Virus record (IMG/VR): IMGVR_UViG_3300012009_000018
Coordinates: 1 to 46,081 of that record
From: a virus
Direction: 5' to 3' (one strand)
Length of the DNA stretch: 46,081 nt
Shown here one piece after another: positions 6,704 to 46,081 of this stretch (positions within the stretch are counted from its first letter, which is position 1; each line of letters opens with the position of its first letter). The notes under the pieces are model-generated. The model was not told the DNA's origin and made no database searches. It saw only the letters and a list, made by a program, of their open reading frames with translations. A program made the translations under genes and the position numbers.

Positions 6704-6927
6704 GCAAGAAACAAACTAAAACAGGTGTACCTTCTATAGGGAAAGAGAAGACGCAGAAAGAGCTTACGGATGAGCAGGTTCGGGGTGCCCTTGGGGAGTT
6801 GTACGGTAGTATTAACTCTCTAGGTGCTGAAATACTCAAGCTCAAAGAGACCGAAAAGACTATTAACGTCAAGGTAGCTCTTGATGGCATCCCCGCCATC
6901 ATCAAGGCTGTCCTCAGGAAGAGCTGA
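6700..6927 (+). CDS. Hypothetical protein, 75 aa
   Basis: AAAGGAGG five bases before the ATG at 6700 sets the start; an upstream ATG at 6673 lacks one. Basic N-terminus, helical middle (LTDEQVRGALGELYGSINSLGAEILKLKE), then a strand (INVKVALDG). The last codons overlap the exonuclease start (TGATG), so the two are co-translated. No family recognised. Confidence 0.6.
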   Translation: MSKKQTKTGVPSIGKEKTQKELTDEQVRGALGELYGSINSLGAEILKLKETEKTINVKVALDGIPAIIKAVLRKS

Positions 6928-7610
6928 TGAGAGTCCCAGCGAAGAAGCTACGTAAAAAAGACCTAGTCTGGTTATCAGAGAACAGGTGTAAGCACGGGCA
7001 CACCTACCTCGAACACTACCAATGCTACTTAGACGAAAAGCCCGAGGAGTCCCCTTTCCATGAGCATATCGGATACTTTGACATTGAGGCTACAAACTTA
7101 TCAGCAGACTTCGGATACATGCTGTGCTACTCGATACTCGATGGAGAAAGCGGAGATATTCTACAGAATAGTATTAAGCCGCGAGAGATATTGGAGTACG
7201 TTTTCGATAAACGTCTTATCCAGGACTGCATTAAAGACATGAGAAAGTTTACTAGACTTGTAGTGTATTACGGGCATAATAGACAGTTCGATTTACCCTT
7301 CGTGAGAACACGTGCGTTTATACACCAGATAGAATTCCCGCAGTACCTTGAGATGTACGCTACCGACCTGTACCGTGTGGTTAAGTCAAAGCTGAGGTTC
7401 TCCCGGAACCGGTTAGCTAACGTCTGTGCGGCTGGCGGCATCAGCGCTAAAGGTCATCCCTTAATCCCCGATGTGTGGCAAAGGGCAATGGCTGGAGACC
7501 AAGATTCATTGGACTTCATCCAAGTGCACTGTAATGAAGATGTAGAGTCTCTAAAGAAAGCCGCCGATAGAATCCTGCCGTTCACAAGGTTGAGTAAAGC
7601 GAGCTTGTAA
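6927..7610 (+). CDS. DEDD-family 3'-5' exonuclease (RNase H fold)
   Basis: 227 residues. Exo I is FDIEATNLSADFG (D52, E54), Exo II is YYGHNRQFDLPFVRTRA (D122), Exo III is HCNEDVESL (H201, D205). This matches the YprB/PolB-exonuclease branch of RNase H-like nucleases. The N-terminal 45 residues are Cys/His-rich (CKHGHTYLEHYQCYL) and may bind zinc. With the helicase and RecB-like nuclease it completes a DNA-processing set; lacking its own polymerase, the phage may use it for proofreading-like trimming or host DNA breakdown. Confidence 0.8.
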   Translation: MRVPAKKLRKKDLVWLSENRCKHGHTYLEHYQCYLDEKPEESPFHEHIGYFDIEATNLSADFGYMLCYSILDGESGDILQNSIKPREILEYVFDKRLIQDCIKDMRKFTRLVVYYGHNRQFDLPFVRTRAFIHQIEFPQYLEMYATDLYRVVKSKLRFSRNRLANVCAAGGISAKGHPLIPDVWQRAMAGDQDSLDFIQVHCNEDVESLKKAADRILPFTRLSKASL

Positions 7611-37262: not shown

Positions 37263-37278
37263 CAAGTTATAACCATAA

Positions 37279-37318
37279 ATGCCCCGGGGAATTGATTTTC
37301 CCTGGGGCATTTTTTTTT
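37279..37318 (+). terminator. Strong intrinsic terminator
   Basis: ATGCCCCGGGGAA and TTTCCCTGGGGCAT form a stem of 13 or more bp, followed by eight or more T. It ends the small rightward operon. It also faces the end of the leftward array (last stop at 37399) and can stop both. Confidence 0.9.
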
Positions 37319-37398: not shown

Positions 37399-37647
37399 TC
37401 ACTTACCAGAGTATAATGTAAAACCGTCATGTTTGAAGATTGGACGTGAGCATGGTTTTTCCCACCATCTTGTAGCCGGGAGGGCGCTTATTAGCCCGTC
37501 CGCCCGGAAATATTTAATAAGCCATTCCTTCCCCGGCCTGTATGAATGCAATCTGGAGCATGAATCCTCATTTCTTCTGGTCATGTACCAGGCTATCATT
37601 CTCTCCGACCGTGCTTGTATTAAGTACCGCTCATTTATTCCTTTCAT
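37399..37647 (-). CDS. Array paralogue 7 (last), 82 aa
   Basis: Start at 37647 (GTGGAG six bases upstream), not 37752. Begins MKGINERYL and later has KEWLIKYF and TRWWEKP, the three landmarks shared with the three genes upstream. It has a longer insert between the first two landmarks. Last gene before the operon end. The overlap with the upstream gene is 4 bases (ATGA). Confidence 0.7.
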   Translation of the reverse strand: MKGINERYLIQARSERMIAWYMTRRNEDSCSRLHSYRPGKEWLIKYFRADGLISALPATRWWEKPCSRPIFKHDGFTLYSGK

Positions 37648-37850
37648 GTCATACTCCACCCTTTTATCCTGTAACGCTCTGGGATATCCCACCAACTCCC
37701 CTGGGGGACAATAAACACGAGCCCTTTCCTGGCGTAGCGTAGGATAAGCCATTCCTCATGCGGGGCATCTTCTCGCTTTGCTATGTAAGCACCCTTTGGC
37801 TCACCAAGCACCTTCATAGGTGTCAAATACTTCCCGTTTATTCCTTGCAT
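37644..37850 (-). CDS. Array paralogue 6, 68 aa
   Basis: Landmarks: MQGINGKYLTP at the start, IAKREDAPHEEWLILRY in the middle, VPQGSWWDIP near 50. Short strands dominate, so a small beta fold is likely. GGGGGT before the ATG; stop and start codons overlap neighbours on both sides. Confidence 0.75.
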   Translation of the reverse strand: MQGINGKYLTPMKVLGEPKGAYIAKREDAPHEEWLILRYARKGLVFIVPQGSWWDIPERYRIKGWSMT

Positions 37851-38059
37851 CTACCTACCCCCTCTGCGTACGTAAAAATTTCATACGGCTTGATATAACA
37901 TAAGGTAGTCCACCATCTTACCCGGGGGGTAATGCGTACATACCTGCCATGACGTACCCTCTCAATGTACCATTCTTCGGGGCCTCTTTTAGCTATAACA
38001 TAACTGTGTCTGGAGGTGCCCTTTATGGGGCATAAATACTTCTCGTCTATCCACTCCAT
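37838..38059 (-). CDS. Array paralogue 5, 73 aa
   Basis: AAGGAGG just upstream sets the start at 38059. Landmarks: MEWIDEKYLCP, IAKRGPEEWYIER, ITPRVRWWTTL. Clearly the same family as the flanking genes though little nucleotide identity remains, so the duplications are old or diversified. Overlaps both neighbours. Confidence 0.75.
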   Translation of the reverse strand: MEWIDEKYLCPIKGTSRHSYVIAKRGPEEWYIERVRHGRYVRITPRVRWWTTLCYIKPYEIFTYAEGVGRCKE

Positions 38060-38256
38060 TTTGCCTCCTTCTTTATGAAAAAACGGTCTAAGGGGGCCCA
38101 CCATCCTCCATATGGGGTGACATATATACGCTTCTTATGAGACCGTATAATGAGCCACCTCTCTCTCGGCGTGTCTTCCCGGCTTGCAAAGCGGTACCGA
38201 CTCGCGTGCACACGCCCCCCTGGGTATGTCAAATATTTTTCATTTATCCCTTTCAT
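38047..38256 (-). CDS. Array paralogue 4, 69 aa
   Basis: Start at 38256 with GGAAGG five bases upstream. Landmarks: MKGINEKYLTYPGG, ASREDTPRERWLIIRS, VTPYGGWWAPL. Closest to paralogues 6 and 7. The frame is open upstream to 38337 but inside the previous gene. Confidence 0.75.
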   Translation of the reverse strand: MKGINEKYLTYPGGRVHASRYRFASREDTPRERWLIIRSHKKRIYVTPYGGWWAPLDRFFIKKEAKWSG

Positions 38257-38486
38257 GACGCCCTTCCATGTCTTGCGGAAACCAGTCTTGTATGATGAGT
38301 ATGTATCTCGCACCGCCGGGGATACCAATTCTGCCACTGGAATACAAGGCTTTTTGACCTGGGCCAGACATAGACTTCATACCCATCGGATACCATTGTG
38401 ACATACGCCCGAGCGACCTCTCCATTGCGGAGTCTGGCCCCCCATAAGCCCCGGCGTGTCAGAAGTTTCATATTTACCATCTCCAT
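38253..38486 (-). CDS. Array member 3 (diverged paralogue), 77 aa
   Basis: GGAGG eight bases before ATG 38486. Begins MEMVNMKLLTRRG, then YEVYVWPRSKSLVFQWQNWYP, whose Trp-strand pattern matches member 2 (IFIWKSQGGLMFRWECRPD) and more weakly the WW motif of members 4-7. His-rich tail (EIHTHHTRL). Overlaps the next gene by four bases. Confidence 0.65.
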   Translation of the reverse strand: MEMVNMKLLTRRGLWGARLRNGEVARAYVTMVSDGYEVYVWPRSKSLVFQWQNWYPRRCEIHTHHTRLVSARHGRAS

Positions 38487-38487
38487 G

Positions 38488-38718
38488 TTACAGCCTCCCT
38501 CTTCCACCCGCATAAGACACCGGGGAATGAATATAGCGCATGCTCCGTGATATATCAGGCCTACACTCCCATCTAAACATAAGCCCCCCCTGCGACTTCC
38601 ATATGAAGATTGTATAATTCAGAGACCAAGAGTCGCTTGTGGTATAAACTACGGCCTGTTCTCCATTCCGGCGAGATAAACTCGTACCTTGACGTAGTAT
38701 CCAATCTTTGTTTATCAT
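38488..38718 (-). CDS. Array member 2 (diverged paralogue), 76 aa
   Basis: Begins MINKDWILRQGTS; a central NYTIFIWKSQGGLMFRWE block aligns with member 3. GGGGGT upstream, the same kind of site as paralogue 6. Its start overlaps the stop of member 1. Confidence 0.65.
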   Translation of the reverse strand: MINKDWILRQGTSLSRRNGEQAVVYTTSDSWSLNYTIFIWKSQGGLMFRWECRPDISRSMRYIHSPVSYAGGRGRL

Positions 38719-38993
38719 ATCTCGCTACCCCCAACGGTAAACAGTATGCTGTCCCAGGGTGTCTCATAAGACCCTGTAACTCTCTGCTCTTCTCGCCAAA
38801 CAGCCCTCGTATCTCCGGTATCCCGGAGGATATAAGCTCTAAGAGACCCCCTATCGCTAAATTCATAATGAAACCACATTGAATCCTCTTTTATCCTCAC
38901 CCTGCAATCGCCTTTATACCATACGCTCAAAGCGTCGACAAGCGAGTACCTATTTGACCGGAGGTTTTGCATGAATCTCTTTCTGTCCATCAT
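38715..38993 (-). CDS. Array member 1 (possible distant paralogue), 92 aa
   Basis: First gene after the ATP-grasp gene, whose TGA overlaps this ATG. Beta-rich with aromatic strands (DALSVWYKGDCRVRIKED, MWFHYEFSDRGSLRAYIL). The relation to members 2-7 is weak and rests on size, aromatic strands and tandem position. Translational coupling to the ligase suggests a joint role. Confidence 0.6.
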   Translation of the reverse strand: MMDRKRFMQNLRSNRYSLVDALSVWYKGDCRVRIKEDSMWFHYEFSDRGSLRAYILRDTGDTRAVWREEQRVTGSYETPWDSILFTVGGSEI

Positions 38994-39814
38994 ATACCCT
39001 CACGATACGCGTCTATCTTTTCTCGAAGCTCTCGGATTATACTGCTGTAATAGTCATTCGCCCATGCACACCTTCCATGCATATTGTGCTTAAGGAAGTC
39101 AGCCACCTTCGTGAGCTTCCTGTCCACGGTCAAACCCGGCGCCGTATTCACTTCTAAAACATAGGCATTACCATCTGTCGAATACAAGATATCCGTCGCT
39201 GTAATATCAGCAAATCGGGCAGCTTTTACACCTTCATCTATCACGCATTGCGGTACGTTGCGTCTCTTTACAAGCTTAAACCAGTAACCGTGCTCATGGT
39301 TACGAGGCTCATATTCTTTCACCTCTTTATCATCATTTGGAACCTTCCGGTTATACTCGATTACCTCCCCGCCTATTCCAATGAGCCTGTATTCCCGCTC
39401 GAACGGTATCAGCTCTTGCAGAAACCAGTCTTGCGTTATGAAGCTCATCGCCTCTTCATATCCGCTCACTATTTCAAAGTACTGTCCACGTCGATGAAAC
39501 TTCTTCCGTGCTAAAATGGGATACTCAACGTTATGGCTCTCTACTTCCTCAGGCTCTATAACCCTCGGGGTGACAATACCCTCTGAGGCCATATATTTCC
39601 TGGCCTCATATTTATTCGCACACCTTCTAATGGCTCTCGCTTCGTTTAGCACTAATTGGTGAGACCCATGCAGAGAAGCTGTCGAATTACCCCAGCGTAT
39701 AACTACGGGATGACTCTCGGTTTCGTCGCCTCTTGCTAACTCGAAGCCAAGCTTGCGAGACAGCAACCGTGCAGTTTTCCTTAAACCTCTGCCATGTATT
39801 ATTAGCCCACTCAT
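38990..39814 (-). CDS. ATP-grasp ligase (RimK-like), 274 aa
   Basis: GGAGGAGAA directly before ATG 39814 sets the start. ATP-grasp landmarks: YPILARKKFHRRG (residues 98-110, ATP lysine), DWFLQELIPFEREYRL (129-144), and TATDILYSTDGNAYVLEVNTAPGL (205-228) with D208, E221 and N223 as Mg ligands. These enzymes join a carboxylate to an amine or thiol through an acyl-phosphate. Neighbours are an amidoligase, a glutamine amidotransferase and the short-gene array, so it probably ligates an amino acid or peptide in the same pathway. The substrate is unknown. Confidence 0.85.
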   Translation of the reverse strand: MSGLIIHGRGLRKTARLLSRKLGFELARGDETESHPVVIRWGNSTASLHGSHQLVLNEARAIRRCANKYEARKYMASEGIVTPRVIEPEEVESHNVEYPILARKKFHRRGQYFEIVSGYEEAMSFITQDWFLQELIPFEREYRLIGIGGEVIEYNRKVPNDDKEVKEYEPRNHEHGYWFKLVKRRNVPQCVIDEGVKAARFADITATDILYSTDGNAYVLEVNTAPGLTVDRKLTKVADFLKHNMHGRCAWANDYYSSIIRELREKIDAYREGI

Positions 39815-40344
39815 TTCTCCTCCCCAGAGGGGAATGGTTTCTTCTTCCATTCAGCCCCCTTGTCGGCACAATAATCCTTTCGGTCTTCATATCGTGTCAA
39901 GTCGATGGTTTCTAATTGCTTCGGTTTCGGCGGTTCCTCAGCGTGCCATTTCCCCCACTGATAATATCCCGTACACCTGCCATTCTTACCAAAGTAATAT
40001 GTCTTGGCGCCACTGTTAACATTGTCGCGATGACTATCGTTTCTATATGAAAACCCCCGGAGCTTGCGCTGGTTAATATCATCTCTTATGTCCCTGTCAT
40101 CTTCCTTTTGGTCTTCCGTGTCATCCTCTGTTACAGACACGGCAGACGCCTCCAATGCAAATGCCTCTTGTACCGTGTTCATAAGGGCCAATGTTTGCAC
40201 CTTTTGTGCCTCTGTTCTTCTCGACAAGTCCAGGAATTTCTTCTGCATGGCTGTAACGTTTTCGTCCAGCTTAATTATCATTTCCTCAAGACCCTCTACC
40301 ATCTTGTTTGTCCGTTCTTCTAATTTCTCTAATTTAGTTGTCAT
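39811..40344 (-). CDS. Coiled-coil protein in the amidoligase cluster, 177 aa
   Basis: Residues 1-60 are a continuous coiled coil (LEKLEERTNKMVEGLEEMII), 70-95 are acidic, and the C-terminal part is aromatic with two conserved-looking motifs (KTYYFGKNGRCTGYYQWGKW). It overlaps both the amidotransferase (11 bases) and the ATP-grasp gene (4 bases), so the three are made together. It could be a scaffold, carrier or substrate of the ligases. No family recognised. Confidence 0.65.
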   Translation of the reverse strand: MTTKLEKLEERTNKMVEGLEEMIIKLDENVTAMQKKFLDLSRRTEAQKVQTLALMNTVQEAFALEASAVSVTEDDTEDQKEDDRDIRDDINQRKLRGFSYRNDSHRDNVNSGAKTYYFGKNGRCTGYYQWGKWHAEEPPKPKQLETIDLTRYEDRKDYCADKGAEWKKKPFPSGEEK

Positions 40345-41149
40345 TATATAACTCCATCTTATTCCGTGTGATTTGTGCGACGTATTCCATGCCGGGTTTC
40401 TTTAACCCCAAGTCGAGGCGTAACAAGAATTCTTCCGGTATAGTCGCAGGCATATTCAGTTTCGTCATATCCGAGAACGTTGATTCCTCGCCCGTATAGC
40501 TGAACGGTATGTAGTCAGCCTTGGAGGAAAAAATAAGAAGTTTATTACTTCTCAAATATTGCACCTCGAGGGGGTTCCCATCCCGGTATATGTACAGGTT
40601 ATTTGCCGGGTGATGTAACAGCAGTACGGCCCTGCTCCCGGGCGCCTCTTTCATGCCATAGGCTATCTCTGGCTCGGTCGCCCATTGGCCTGCTTTGCGG
40701 TTTTTATCTATTTGTGCCAGGATATTCTCGGAGTCCACGTCGCCTAAATATGGATATTCTTTATCTTTGGCGCTACTCCATATTACACCATTATGCACCA
40801 TGGTAAACTCGGGGTTAAAGATAGGCATGTTATTCACGTTCTCCCGTTCGTCACCATGGGTCTTGGCTCTGGTATGTAAGAGCATTAACCTGATGTTATA
40901 GTTATCGTAGTCGTCCCCCCAGTTCTTCCTCTGCTCTTCGAGCATATCCTTCACACGCCATGGCCCCCGTATCAGTCGGCTCTCAAGCTTCGGGGTGACT
41001 TCGCTTTTCTTCTTAGAGGGCTTAAACCCCCGAAAATAGACGCCACAGGCGTCCCCCCCACGGGCATCCAGGCTTTCCCATAACCCCTCAATCAAATCTC
41101 CAGGGACAGTCTTTTGTCCGTAGTTAATTATTCCTGCTATTCCACACAT
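40334..41149 (-). CDS. Class II glutamine amidotransferase, 271 aa
   Basis: MCGIAGIINYG puts the catalytic Cys2 at the N-terminus after Met removal. RGGDACGVYF, LLHTRAKTHGDERENVNNMP and MVHNGVIWS are the Ntn-hydrolase glutaminase motifs; DVDSENIL matches the later DSE motif. No synthetase domain is fused, so the released ammonia (or a gamma-glutamyl group) must be used by a partner, most likely the neighbouring amidoligase or ATP-grasp enzyme. GGAGG precedes the ATG. Confidence 0.9.
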   Translation of the reverse strand: MCGIAGIINYGQKTVPGDLIEGLWESLDARGGDACGVYFRGFKPSKKKSEVTPKLESRLIRGPWRVKDMLEEQRKNWGDDYDNYNIRLMLLHTRAKTHGDERENVNNMPIFNPEFTMVHNGVIWSSAKDKEYPYLGDVDSENILAQIDKNRKAGQWATEPEIAYGMKEAPGSRAVLLLHHPANNLYIYRDGNPLEVQYLRSNKLLIFSSKADYIPFSYTGEESTFSDMTKLNMPATIPEEFLLRLDLGLKKPGMEYVAQITRNKMELYNDN

Positions 41150-41154
41150 ATAAC

Positions 41155-43467
41155 TTACCTCCCGTATTTTATATTGATATTATACTTCTCAGAGATATAC
41201 TTCTGAGTCTCCTCAGCCACAAAAGGCTCTACCGAGTCATCACTGGGGCCCTCGAAAGCCTCATAATAATGGTCGATAAAATCCGCCATTGCAATTAACA
41301 ACGTATCCTTATCCTCTTTTGCCGAACTCTCACGTGTACGTAAGATAGCAGTTCCGTTATCTTTCTTCAGTTCGACTGGTACGAATACGTTCATCGCCGC
41401 CGTCTGTCCCTGGCTCCAGCCAGACCTGTACCGGGCTAAACCATCAACAGCACGGTCTTTTAGTGGGTCGAAAGAAAACACCCACCAACCAATTCCCTCT
41501 GTCATCAAGGTAGCATAAGGCCTTGTTAAATCCTGGTATGGCAAGCTATTGCCTTCTCTTGGATAACTGTGGTAACTGGAACCGAGCAGAGCACTCATAT
41601 CCTTAGGCCTTGCGGCGACTCTTACCCCATTAAGGCTAATGGCCTCTGCCGTTACCTGTACAGCGGCATGGTGGACACCTGTAAACACAGTCTCTACACC
41701 TATTCTGGTCGTACATCGGCCAAATCTCCGCTCAGCCTTTTCCGACGCCCCTTGGAGATAAGTTACCATGGCGTCAGGTATCTGCGGTACGGTAACGTAC
41801 TTCTGCACTTCCTTGGTTTTGTATCTGCTCTTCTCTTCCATAAGCCCAGCCATACACAGCGCTTCGGGTATCGGGATGTCCCACTTTATCACTGACGCCT
41901 GGCTATGTTTCGAAGCTATAACATCTGGGTGCTCATCCAAGCCCCAGTTCTTAATAATGTCTCTTACTACAAGGCGTGCTTTATCGGGGCGACCTTCTAT
42001 CCACCCACGCCATTCTTCCCATTCGCTGTCTGACAGTATTGTCTTATAATCAGCCTCTTTGGGGTAACGCTTAAACTTTACAACCTCATTGCGGTCTTGA
42101 GCGTCTACGATTTTCTGAACAATAGCCTGCCCAATCTTAAACACAATACTGGTAAGCTCTCGGGATACGATAAACGATGGCAGTGAGCGATATTCGAAAC
42201 CGTGGGGTTTTCGGCGGTGTCCCCCGCCTCCACCATATTCTCCGCTATCCTGCTTATCCCTATAACTCATCTTTCTCCATTGTGTTACTGCCTGGGCGAA
42301 TGACAACCTGAAGTACGAATAATTCCCCCATCCCCTCTGCATGAACGGAGTACCCTTGGCAAGGGGCTTGTACAGCCATGCGTCAAGCACCCGTGTAATT
42401 ATGTTATGTAACCCACTGCCACCCCTCTTTAAGGCGGGGTGCCCAAAATGTATATGACCGCCGGTCGGCTCTAAGCATCCTCCACCTGCTATGATACGGC
42501 TCCCCTTTGGGGCTAAGGCCGCAACGCCTATGAGACATTCTTCTATATTCTTGACAATCTCTTCACTTGATTCAGCATGGAGCGGGCGTAACTCGCCCGT
42601 CGGTGCGTGTCCATCGTGGCCTACATGCTTTCCGTAGTAGTATGCAGACGCTCGCTCACGGCCATCGAACCATCTCGTTACAGCCATCGGTTTTCTACCG
42701 GGGTGAACTTGGCGCTCTCCGTACATAAGGAATTCAGGGTCGGCACCAAGCGTTACTGGGGTGTGTCCCCGCTCCATCTCATACGAAGCACCCACCATCT
42801 GCATTATTAAATCAAAGAAAACCCCTCGGAGCGTCGGGGCATCTACGGTAACGCCCTTTTTCTTCGCTATATCTTTTGCACGTATTATCCAATGCAACCA
42901 GATACCCGCTATGTCCCCTATGGTGCCGTCATTCGCTATGATAAAAGCGGGTATAGCCTCTCCATCATCATCCTCGATTGTGATAAGGACTCCGCCTGCG
43001 TCAGCAATCTGGACAGTTTCGGTGTGCATACGCAAGACACTTTCCTGTGCCTGCCGGGCGGCCCGTGGGAACGCGTCTCTGATAGCCCTCTTTCCTACGC
43101 CAGTTAAAAACTGAGAGAACTTCACGTTATATATCAGCTCCCTCTCTTCAGCGGTCAAGTCCATGTCATCTAAAATTCCATCAAACTGATGGAACGCCGC
43201 CAATACGACATCTTCTTTCTCTTCCAATTTAGCCATGATATTTGATAGCTGTATAGCGTTGTTCCTGATACGCACCTTACCCTTCGGGGTGACCCGGTGC
43301 GTGTATCGCACGAATTCCTTAATTCTTTTCTTTGACGTAAGAAAGAGAATATTCTGATAATTCTTCAGATTGGCCGAATCAAGGTCTGTTACGGAACAAT
43401 CCCTAAACATAGCCCTACGCCCACCTGGAGCGGACGTTGGTGCAACTTCAATATAATGCCCTGTCAT
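41155..43467 (-). CDS. Amidoligase (phiEco32-like COOH-NH2 ligase, GCS superfamily), 770 aa
   Basis: The middle carries a glutamate-cysteine-ligase-like core: LGADPEFLMYG (240-250), GHDGHAPTGELRP (283-295), GGHIHFG (336-342) and HGFEYRSLPSF (422-432). The order and spacing match the phage COOH-NH2 ligase type 2 family first noted in phiEco32. At 770 residues it is far longer than the core, with about 235 residues before it and over 300 after it, so it is a multidomain form. It should join an amine to a side-chain or terminal carboxylate using ATP. GGGAGG lies nine bases upstream; it overlaps the upstream gene by 20 bases. Confidence 0.8.
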   Translation of the reverse strand: MTGHYIEVAPTSAPGGRRAMFRDCSVTDLDSANLKNYQNILFLTSKKRIKEFVRYTHRVTPKGKVRIRNNAIQLSNIMAKLEEKEDVVLAAFHQFDGILDDMDLTAEERELIYNVKFSQFLTGVGKRAIRDAFPRAARQAQESVLRMHTETVQIADAGGVLITIEDDDGEAIPAFIIANDGTIGDIAGIWLHWIIRAKDIAKKKGVTVDAPTLRGVFFDLIMQMVGASYEMERGHTPVTLGADPEFLMYGERQVHPGRKPMAVTRWFDGRERASAYYYGKHVGHDGHAPTGELRPLHAESSEEIVKNIEECLIGVAALAPKGSRIIAGGGCLEPTGGHIHFGHPALKRGGSGLHNIITRVLDAWLYKPLAKGTPFMQRGWGNYSYFRLSFAQAVTQWRKMSYRDKQDSGEYGGGGGHRRKPHGFEYRSLPSFIVSRELTSIVFKIGQAIVQKIVDAQDRNEVVKFKRYPKEADYKTILSDSEWEEWRGWIEGRPDKARLVVRDIIKNWGLDEHPDVIASKHSQASVIKWDIPIPEALCMAGLMEEKSRYKTKEVQKYVTVPQIPDAMVTYLQGASEKAERRFGRCTTRIGVETVFTGVHHAAVQVTAEAISLNGVRVAARPKDMSALLGSSYHSYPREGNSLPYQDLTRPYATLMTEGIGWWVFSFDPLKDRAVDGLARYRSGWSQGQTAAMNVFVPVELKKDNGTAILRTRESSAKEDKDTLLIAMADFIDHYYEAFEGPSDDSVEPFVAEETQKYISEKYNINIKYGR

Positions 43468-45203: not shown

Positions 45204-45358
45204 TTGCTCATCCTCTTCGGTCTGGGAGCTGGGGGAGGTTTGGTTGGTAATTGGTTTGTATCAGATACTGGCTTATTCAATCTCTTTTTTCCACCTTCAG
45301 TTAGAGACCCCTTTTTACGTATCGTGCCGTTTGGTTTCCTTAATGTTATCCGATACAT
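45191..45358 (-). CDS. Small basic Pro-rich protein, 55 aa
   Basis: ATG at 45358 directly follows the upstream TAA, with GGAGGATGAATAA as site. Sequence is Lys/Arg/Pro-rich (KPNGTIRKKGSLTEGGKKRL, PTKPPPAPRPKR), likely unstructured and nucleic-acid binding. Shares MYRIT and the start region with the downstream gene, overlapping it by 13 bases. Left copy truncated at 1-40. Confidence 0.55.
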   Translation of the reverse strand: MYRITLRKPNGTIRKKGSLTEGGKKRLNKPVSDTNQLPTKPPPAPRPKRMSKCIG

Positions 45359-45538
45359 TTATTCATCCTCCATCAGCGGTGACTTGCCCAATTGTATAAG
45401 CCCCATCAGGCGCTTAAAGTCTGCCTTGCTCTTGGGTTTATAATACGACACCATATCAACCCATAGCATTTTGGCTTGCGTTTTGTCCAGGTCAGGGTAA
45501 TACTCCATGACCGCCTTAATACCTTGTTCTGTTGACAT
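45359..45538 (-). CDS. Hypothetical protein, 59 aa (first gene of the leftward operon)
   Basis: Intact copy of the gene at 41-220, here in its full operon. GGAGGTATTTT before ATG 45538 decides the start. It is the promoter-proximal product of the accessory operon that ends with the amidoligase cluster and the short-gene array. No family recognised. Confidence 0.7.
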   Translation of the reverse strand: MSTEQGIKAVMEYYPDLDKTQAKMLWVDMVSYYKPKSKADFKRLMGLIQLGKSPLMEDE

Positions 45539-45669
45539 AAAATACCTCCAGTTTTTTGTTACGCTCATAATGATACCATACCATAGCTAAATATCACATT
45601 GCAATACACCTCCATTAATTAATCCCTACTAAAATAGTAGGCTTTACTATTCAAACTCTGCTATTACTA

Positions 45670-45698
45670 ATAATAGCAAATTACCTTGTACTTGTCAA
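45670..45698 (-). promoter_or_regulatory. Leftward early promoter, right-end copy
   Basis: Same promoter as at 352-380, in the right terminal copy. In this orientation it reads into the complete leftward operon (45538 down to 37399), where no other equally good promoter was seen. Confidence 0.8.
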
Positions 45699-45820
45699 GT
45701 GATTTATTTACAGGCTTTACCCTTGTTAATCCCGACCCTTTTAGTAGTCTTTATCTTGAGCTCTGGGGTAGGGGCCCCGGAGTGACATCATATCCATGAT
45801 AAACTTTTTCAAAAAAAGAC

Positions 45821-45849
45821 TTGACAAGTACTAGCTAATATGGTATGCT
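45821..45849 (+). promoter_or_regulatory. Rightward early promoter, right-end copy
   Basis: Copy of the promoter at 503-531 within the terminal duplication. It reads off the window end; on the circular map it is the same element. Confidence 0.8.
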
Positions 45850-46081
45850 ATAGAATGTGGTGGTCACGACAGTACACATATACGGGGGCTAGTCGGTTTT
45901 CACCTCCCGTTTCCGGCTAGCTCCCAAAAAAAAGAAGAAAGAAAGAAAGCTTACGAAGAGAAGCTATAAGAGCTTAAGAGCTATTAAGAGTCTTAATATA
46001 TATATATATAAAATATATATATTAAGCCTAAGAGCTTCTTAAGAGCTTCTTAAGAGCTTCTTAAGAGCTTCTTAAGAGCTT

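Follow-up and report, generated by a model that had tools for sequence, protein, structure and literature searches.

Organization of the locus

The stretch of DNA analysed here (the window, 46,081 bases) carries seven small minus-strand genes at positions 37399-38993, located 3' of an ATP-grasp ligase gene. We numbered them m1 to m7, with m1 the farthest from the ATP-grasp gene (member 7 of the first-pass annotation) and m7 the gene adjoining it (member 1). A re-check of the open reading frames returned the same coordinates, strand and number of genes as that annotation. The features of the region are:

37277..37312, no strand assigned: terminator candidate, a strong hairpin with a 15-pair stem and then a T-run
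37399..37647, minus strand: m1, 82 aa, family A, member 7 of the first-pass annotation; its own coding frame scores best
37644..37850, minus strand: m2, 68 aa, family A; 42% identity to m4
37838..38059, minus strand: m3, 73 aa, family A; overlaps m2 by 13 nt
38047..38256, minus strand: m4, 69 aa, family A; overlaps m3 by 13 nt
38253..38486, minus strand: m5, 77 aa, family B; N-terminus weakly like family A
38488..38718, minus strand: m6, 76 aa, family B; 39% identity to m5, E 1.7e-6
38715..38993, minus strand: m7, 92 aa, singleton; all pairs at background
38990..39814, minus strand: ATP-grasp ligase, RimK / alpha-L-glutamate ligase type, 274 aa from the ATG at 39814
39811..40344, minus strand: 177-aa gene, N-terminal half coiled-coil-like, no family match
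40334..41149, minus strand: class-II glutamine amidotransferase (GATase), N-terminal MCGI, Cys2
41155..43467, minus strand: phiEco32-type COOH.NH2 ligase (amidoligase, PF14395), 770 aa, E 2.3e-17

The operon thus runs from the amidoligase through the class-II GATase, the coiled-coil-like gene and the RimK-like ATP-grasp gene to the array, which is followed by the hairpin and by convergent plus-strand genes. The hairpin between the array and these convergent genes is likely a terminator. The ATP-grasp protein matched the MptN/CofF/RimK models and was nearest to alpha-L-glutamate ligases, with no match to MvdC/D in the model search; its start at 39814 was fixed by the relatives described below and by an ATGA overlap with the preceding gene. 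For the 177-aa gene the top matches, EIF4E-T and Cas4_II, were low-scoring and were taken as composition effects. Positions 1-763 and 45319-46081 form an exact 763-bp direct terminal repeat, indicating that the genome is probably complete. The terminase and the ATP-grasp protein showed about 22-30% identity to those of Zobellviridae phages such as CW02, CVT22 and PA11, which is a distant relationship.

Stop and start codons overlapped at six of the seven junctions from the ATP-grasp gene to m1. The overlap was ATGA at four of them (ATP-grasp/m7, m7/m6, m5/m4 and m2/m1) and 13 nt long at m4/m3 and m3/m2, while m6 and m5 were separated by a 1-nt gap. This agrees with the earlier description of nearly all codons overlapping, mostly as ATGA.

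When codon usage was scored with the large genes of the phage as the standard, the own frame was best for 7/7 array genes, and purine-rich Shine-Dalgarno-like sequences were found upstream of the array gene starts. These two findings and the excess of pS over pN given below show that m1 to m7 are real protein-coding genes, and the true start of m1 is at MKGINERYL rather than that of a longer open reading frame reaching 37752. The encoded proteins are 68-92 aa long and mostly very basic (pI 9.3-10.9; m7 is the exception at 7.9), with a Trp content of 5.2% as compared to 1.75% in the phage proteome. AlphaFold models of m4 (pLDDT 56) and m6 (pLDDT 50) were too low in confidence to be used in a fold search; with low confidence, the models suggest that the array proteins are perhaps beta-rich.

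Two families and a singleton

Paralogy was tested by local alignment against 1000 shuffles. All pairs among m1-m4 gave z values of 5.8 to 19 with identities of 29-42%, and at most 1 of the 1000 shuffles reached the score of any pair (m1 against m2, m3 and m4: z 11.4, 7.6 and 5.8; m2 against m4: 19; m3 against m2 and m4: 10.4 and 7.2). The m5 and m6 proteins aligned with a z of 9.6 and 39% identity. Judged from these alignments, m1-m4 are certainly paralogues (family A), and m5 and m6 are paralogues of each other (family B). By whole-length alignment m5 and m6 were at background level against m1-m4, and m7 was at background in every pair by local alignment against shuffles.

The sole link between the families was the start of m5, MEMVNMKLL, which resembles the MKGINEKYL of family A. 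About 0.2% of open ATG starts equalled or bettered this likeness (empirical p ~0.002), and hhalign of family A against family B aligned the same 12 N-terminal columns with P 0.05. These matches are a hint that suggests a common origin of the two families. Since this weak N-terminal motif is all that joins them, we describe the array as 4+2 rather than as six paralogues. A profile made from all six members recovers all six by construction and was not counted as evidence. Profile searches of the whole window gave no further array copies elsewhere in it.

The first-pass annotation had proposed at least six diverged paralogues. Its members 4-7 are a true family and its members 2 and 3 a true pair, by the z values given above, and the proposal thus stands for four and for two genes but not for a single six-member family. 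Member 1, which had been called weaker, is present as a coupled gene but was at background against everything.

Traces of tandem duplication

A 40-nt repeat was found at the gene starts of m1-m4, with 60-70% DNA identity and spacings of 203, 209 and 197 nt. These spacings point to a duplication unit of about 200 bp and fit tandem duplication. The junctions bear a related trace. In all junctions from m5 to m1 the upstream gene is in the same relative frame. At m5/m4 and m2/m1 the upstream frame stops at the ATGA and a later stop is present too, whereas at m4/m3 and m3/m2 the ATGA stop is absent and the upstream gene stops 10 bases inside the next gene, at the second in-frame stop. A shared frame with two alternative stops is the pattern expected of duplicated junctions.

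Low DNA identity among the copies had been reported earlier, and we found the same, although the 40-nt start repeat has persisted. The values of pS were 0.63-0.81 and those of pN 0.39-0.52, with pS > pN in all pairs and synonymous sites near saturation, which indicates that the array proteins are under constraint. From the earlier proposal of repeated duplication with diversification, duplication with divergence is supported; rapid diversification is not supported by these values.

The closest relatives lack the array

Searches with the terminase and capsid proteins identified two complete relatives, G001 (49,015 bp) and G002 (47,122 bp), whose major capsid proteins are 70-73% identical to that of the window; single ATP-grasp, amidoligase or GATase queries gave no relatives. 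Both have the cassette of amidoligase, GATase, coiled coil and ATP-grasp in the order of the window, and neither has a match to family A, to family B or to m7. The operon finishes at the ATP-grasp gene in both, followed by small convergent genes in G001 and by a convergent glycosyltransferase gene in G002. As the convergent genes behind the ATP-grasp gene are unlike each other, the site is variable, and as the cassette occurs without the array in the two relatives compared, the array is lineage-specific. Related phages with one conserved copy had been named beforehand as a finding that would speak against the first-pass reading; G001 and G002 have zero copies.

A coiled-coil-like gene lies between GATase and ATP-grasp in 3/3 phages (window 39811-40344, G002 1204-1692, G001 1334-1690), and the three genes showed no sequence similarity to each other at E 0.01. 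In G002, two adjoining genes for small membrane proteins (6708-6938 and 6916-7104) lie between the ligase cassette and the terminase and seem to be duplicates.

For the small proteins themselves, tblastn of m2, m4, m6 and m7 against 50,697 phage records gave chance-level matches only. Family A peptide patterns, which reach fairly close relatives only, gave none in IMG/VR and GTDB genomes. No relatives of the array proteins were found in Pfam, PHROGs, NCBIfam, PADLOC or PDB sequences, and PADLOC, a library of defence rather than anti-defence proteins, returned nothing relevant. The best match of the family A profile among PDB sequences, a 51-residue match to saccharopine dehydrogenase with E 0.056, was taken as chance. 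Within these searches the array proteins appear to be orphans, in line with the earlier remark that no described family has this pattern.

Small-gene clusters in Zobellviridae

In three Zobellviridae, Citrobacter phage CVT22, Salinivibrio phage CW02 and Vibrio phage 1.293.O, an ATP-grasp gene is likewise accompanied by coupled small genes (about 60-90 aa), and the clusters of CW02 and 1.293.O contain tandem paralogues, as the array does. However, the small proteins of these three phages have no sequence relation to m1-m7. CVT22 and CW02 have C-terminal tags, whereas in the window conservation is confined to the N-terminus and centre of family A members; no common C-terminal 4-mer of the CVT22 type rose above background in the window.

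In the early region of CVT22 (NC_027988, ~28.0-43.2 kb), 17 small proteins with mostly dissimilar bodies end in LENE and one more in LENK, with the tag encoded as YTG GAG AAY GAR. Coupled enzymes of the same operon are without the LENE tag, and one uncoupled gene has it. The tag may be either an embedded ribosome-binding signal, as GAG gives a Shine-Dalgarno-like GGAG, or a protein tag. In the CW02 genome (NC_019540), the region at 1-10.2 kb encodes about eight small proteins whose C-terminus is LEENV, LEDNV or closely similar. The CW02 proteins gp13 and gp14 are paralogues encoded in tandem immediately after the ATP-grasp gene. Three paralogous small proteins of Pseudoalteromonas phage HP1 (9479-9766, 14971-15228 and 15880-16134) share the tail PELPLN(Q/H)VIGIPSL(K/E)G.IF, and many synonymous changes in it indicate that it is the protein sequence of the tail that is preserved. 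Apart from CVT22, CW02 and HP1, phages bearing such a cassette had no tails of this type.

The array of the window sits at the end of a phiEco32-type amidoligase/GATase/ATP-grasp cassette (Iyer et al. 2009, cited in PMC10580990). The literature passages considered here point to cell-wall modification as a role of the cassette and do not mention an array.

Interpretation

We conclude that the tandem array is real and specific to its lineage; it consists of orphan genes and is of an ordinary kind. As in other tandemly duplicated phage accessory arrays, adjacent genes have mutual protein similarity (4+2, m7 not included) and presence is patchy, being nil in G001 and G002. Lineage-specific coupled small genes are usually read as accessory and host-directed. 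We give a probability of about 0.5 to the explanation that an accessory, lineage-specific and probably host-directed small-protein array ends a conserved peptide-ligase operon. Counted for it were the 4+2 paralogy, the remnant of the DNA repeat, the junction frames, the coding signal in 7/7 genes, the absence in the two relatives, the orphan status and the basic, Trp-rich composition. Counted against it were pN below pS, giving no sign of diversifying selection, though with sites near saturation; the low-pLDDT models, which suggest no binding fold; and the position directly behind the ligase, which could reflect a functional tie between the two.

The four copies m4-m1 arose by tandem duplication of a gene of about 200 bp together with its start signal, and m6 and m5 by one duplication of a second small gene, with m7 as a single gene. 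According to the preferred explanation, ribosomes would pass from gene to gene at the overlapping stops and starts, and the seven products would be made together with the ligases. Each product probably binds a host macromolecule, either a protein or a nucleic-acid complex, and the copies have probably drifted to different targets in the manner of host-takeover or counter-defence proteins. The host-directed role is what we infer from the accessory, lineage-specific pattern, and the earlier suggestion of antagonists of variable host targets would fit that pattern.

The basic, aromatic-rich composition would also suit small nucleic-acid-binding or regulatory proteins that help in the phage's own transcription, replication or packaging and were duplicated with no target in the host; duplicated small genes with SH3/KOW-like patterns were seen by eye in CW02 and Vibrio phage 1.293.O. 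We consider such a role conceivable but rather unlikely, since complete relatives whose capsid proteins are 70% identical lack the array, which is thus not part of the core programme.

The tight coupling to an ATP-grasp gene, whose product is nearest to alpha-L-glutamate ligases, raises the question of whether the array proteins are acceptor substrates, to which the RimK-like ATP-grasp enzyme or the amidoligase adds amino acids or ammonia-derived groups, as with RimK and ribosomal protein S6 or LysX and LysW. Zobellviridae with such a cassette do have coupled small genes around the ATP-grasp gene, with common C-terminal tails in three, but their arrays are unrelated in sequence to the one described here. 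The C-termini of the seven proteins (SGK, SMT, CKE, WSG, RAS, GRL and SEI) have no common feature and lack conserved acceptor residues of the LysW/RimK type. Moreover, the cassette persists without any array member in G001 and G002, and the array is thus no required substrate of it. The proposal of multiple substrates of the adjacent ligases, made in the first-pass annotation, is weakened by the latter two findings, and we regard it as improbable.

A further reading, in which the array proteins are diversified carriers or targets of phage peptide-tagging, is improbable as well. Here the RimK-like ligase, amidoligase and GATase would modify small proteins made by the phage, each directed at a different host target, and in other cassette phages the same purpose would be served by unrelated small proteins that have a common terminal tag (CVT22 LENE, CW02 LEENV, HP1 PELPLN...IF).

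It is very improbable that the array encodes graspetide-like RiPP precursors with MKGINEKYL as a conserved leader and a variable core that the ATP-grasp enzyme would cyclise: a conserved N-terminus, a variable C-terminus and several small paralogous genes beside one ATP-grasp gene recall graspetide loci with tandem divergent precursors (PMC8939145), but conservation extends through the middle (EWLI, WW) beyond any leader, the m1-m4 alignment lacks the Phhx(1,2)h leader motif (present in only about half of known graspetide precursors; PMC8939145), the GG site and the conserved Thr/Ser and Asp/Glu core, the ATP-grasp protein matches glutamate ligases rather than peptide maturases and is no partner of the MvdC/MvdD type, and the relatives have the enzyme but no precursors.

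An accessory, probably host-directed array thus remains our preferred explanation. The array adds two orphan small-protein families from an uncultured, Zobellviridae-like phage lineage and clearly illustrates how accessory genes can grow in number through tandem duplication. The ligase cassette, conserved in 3/3 genomes compared, is separable from the small genes behind it, which narrows its possible purpose. Should the C-terminal tails in other cassette phages turn out to be targets of the ligases, the function of the cassette, which is widespread in phages, would be directly testable.
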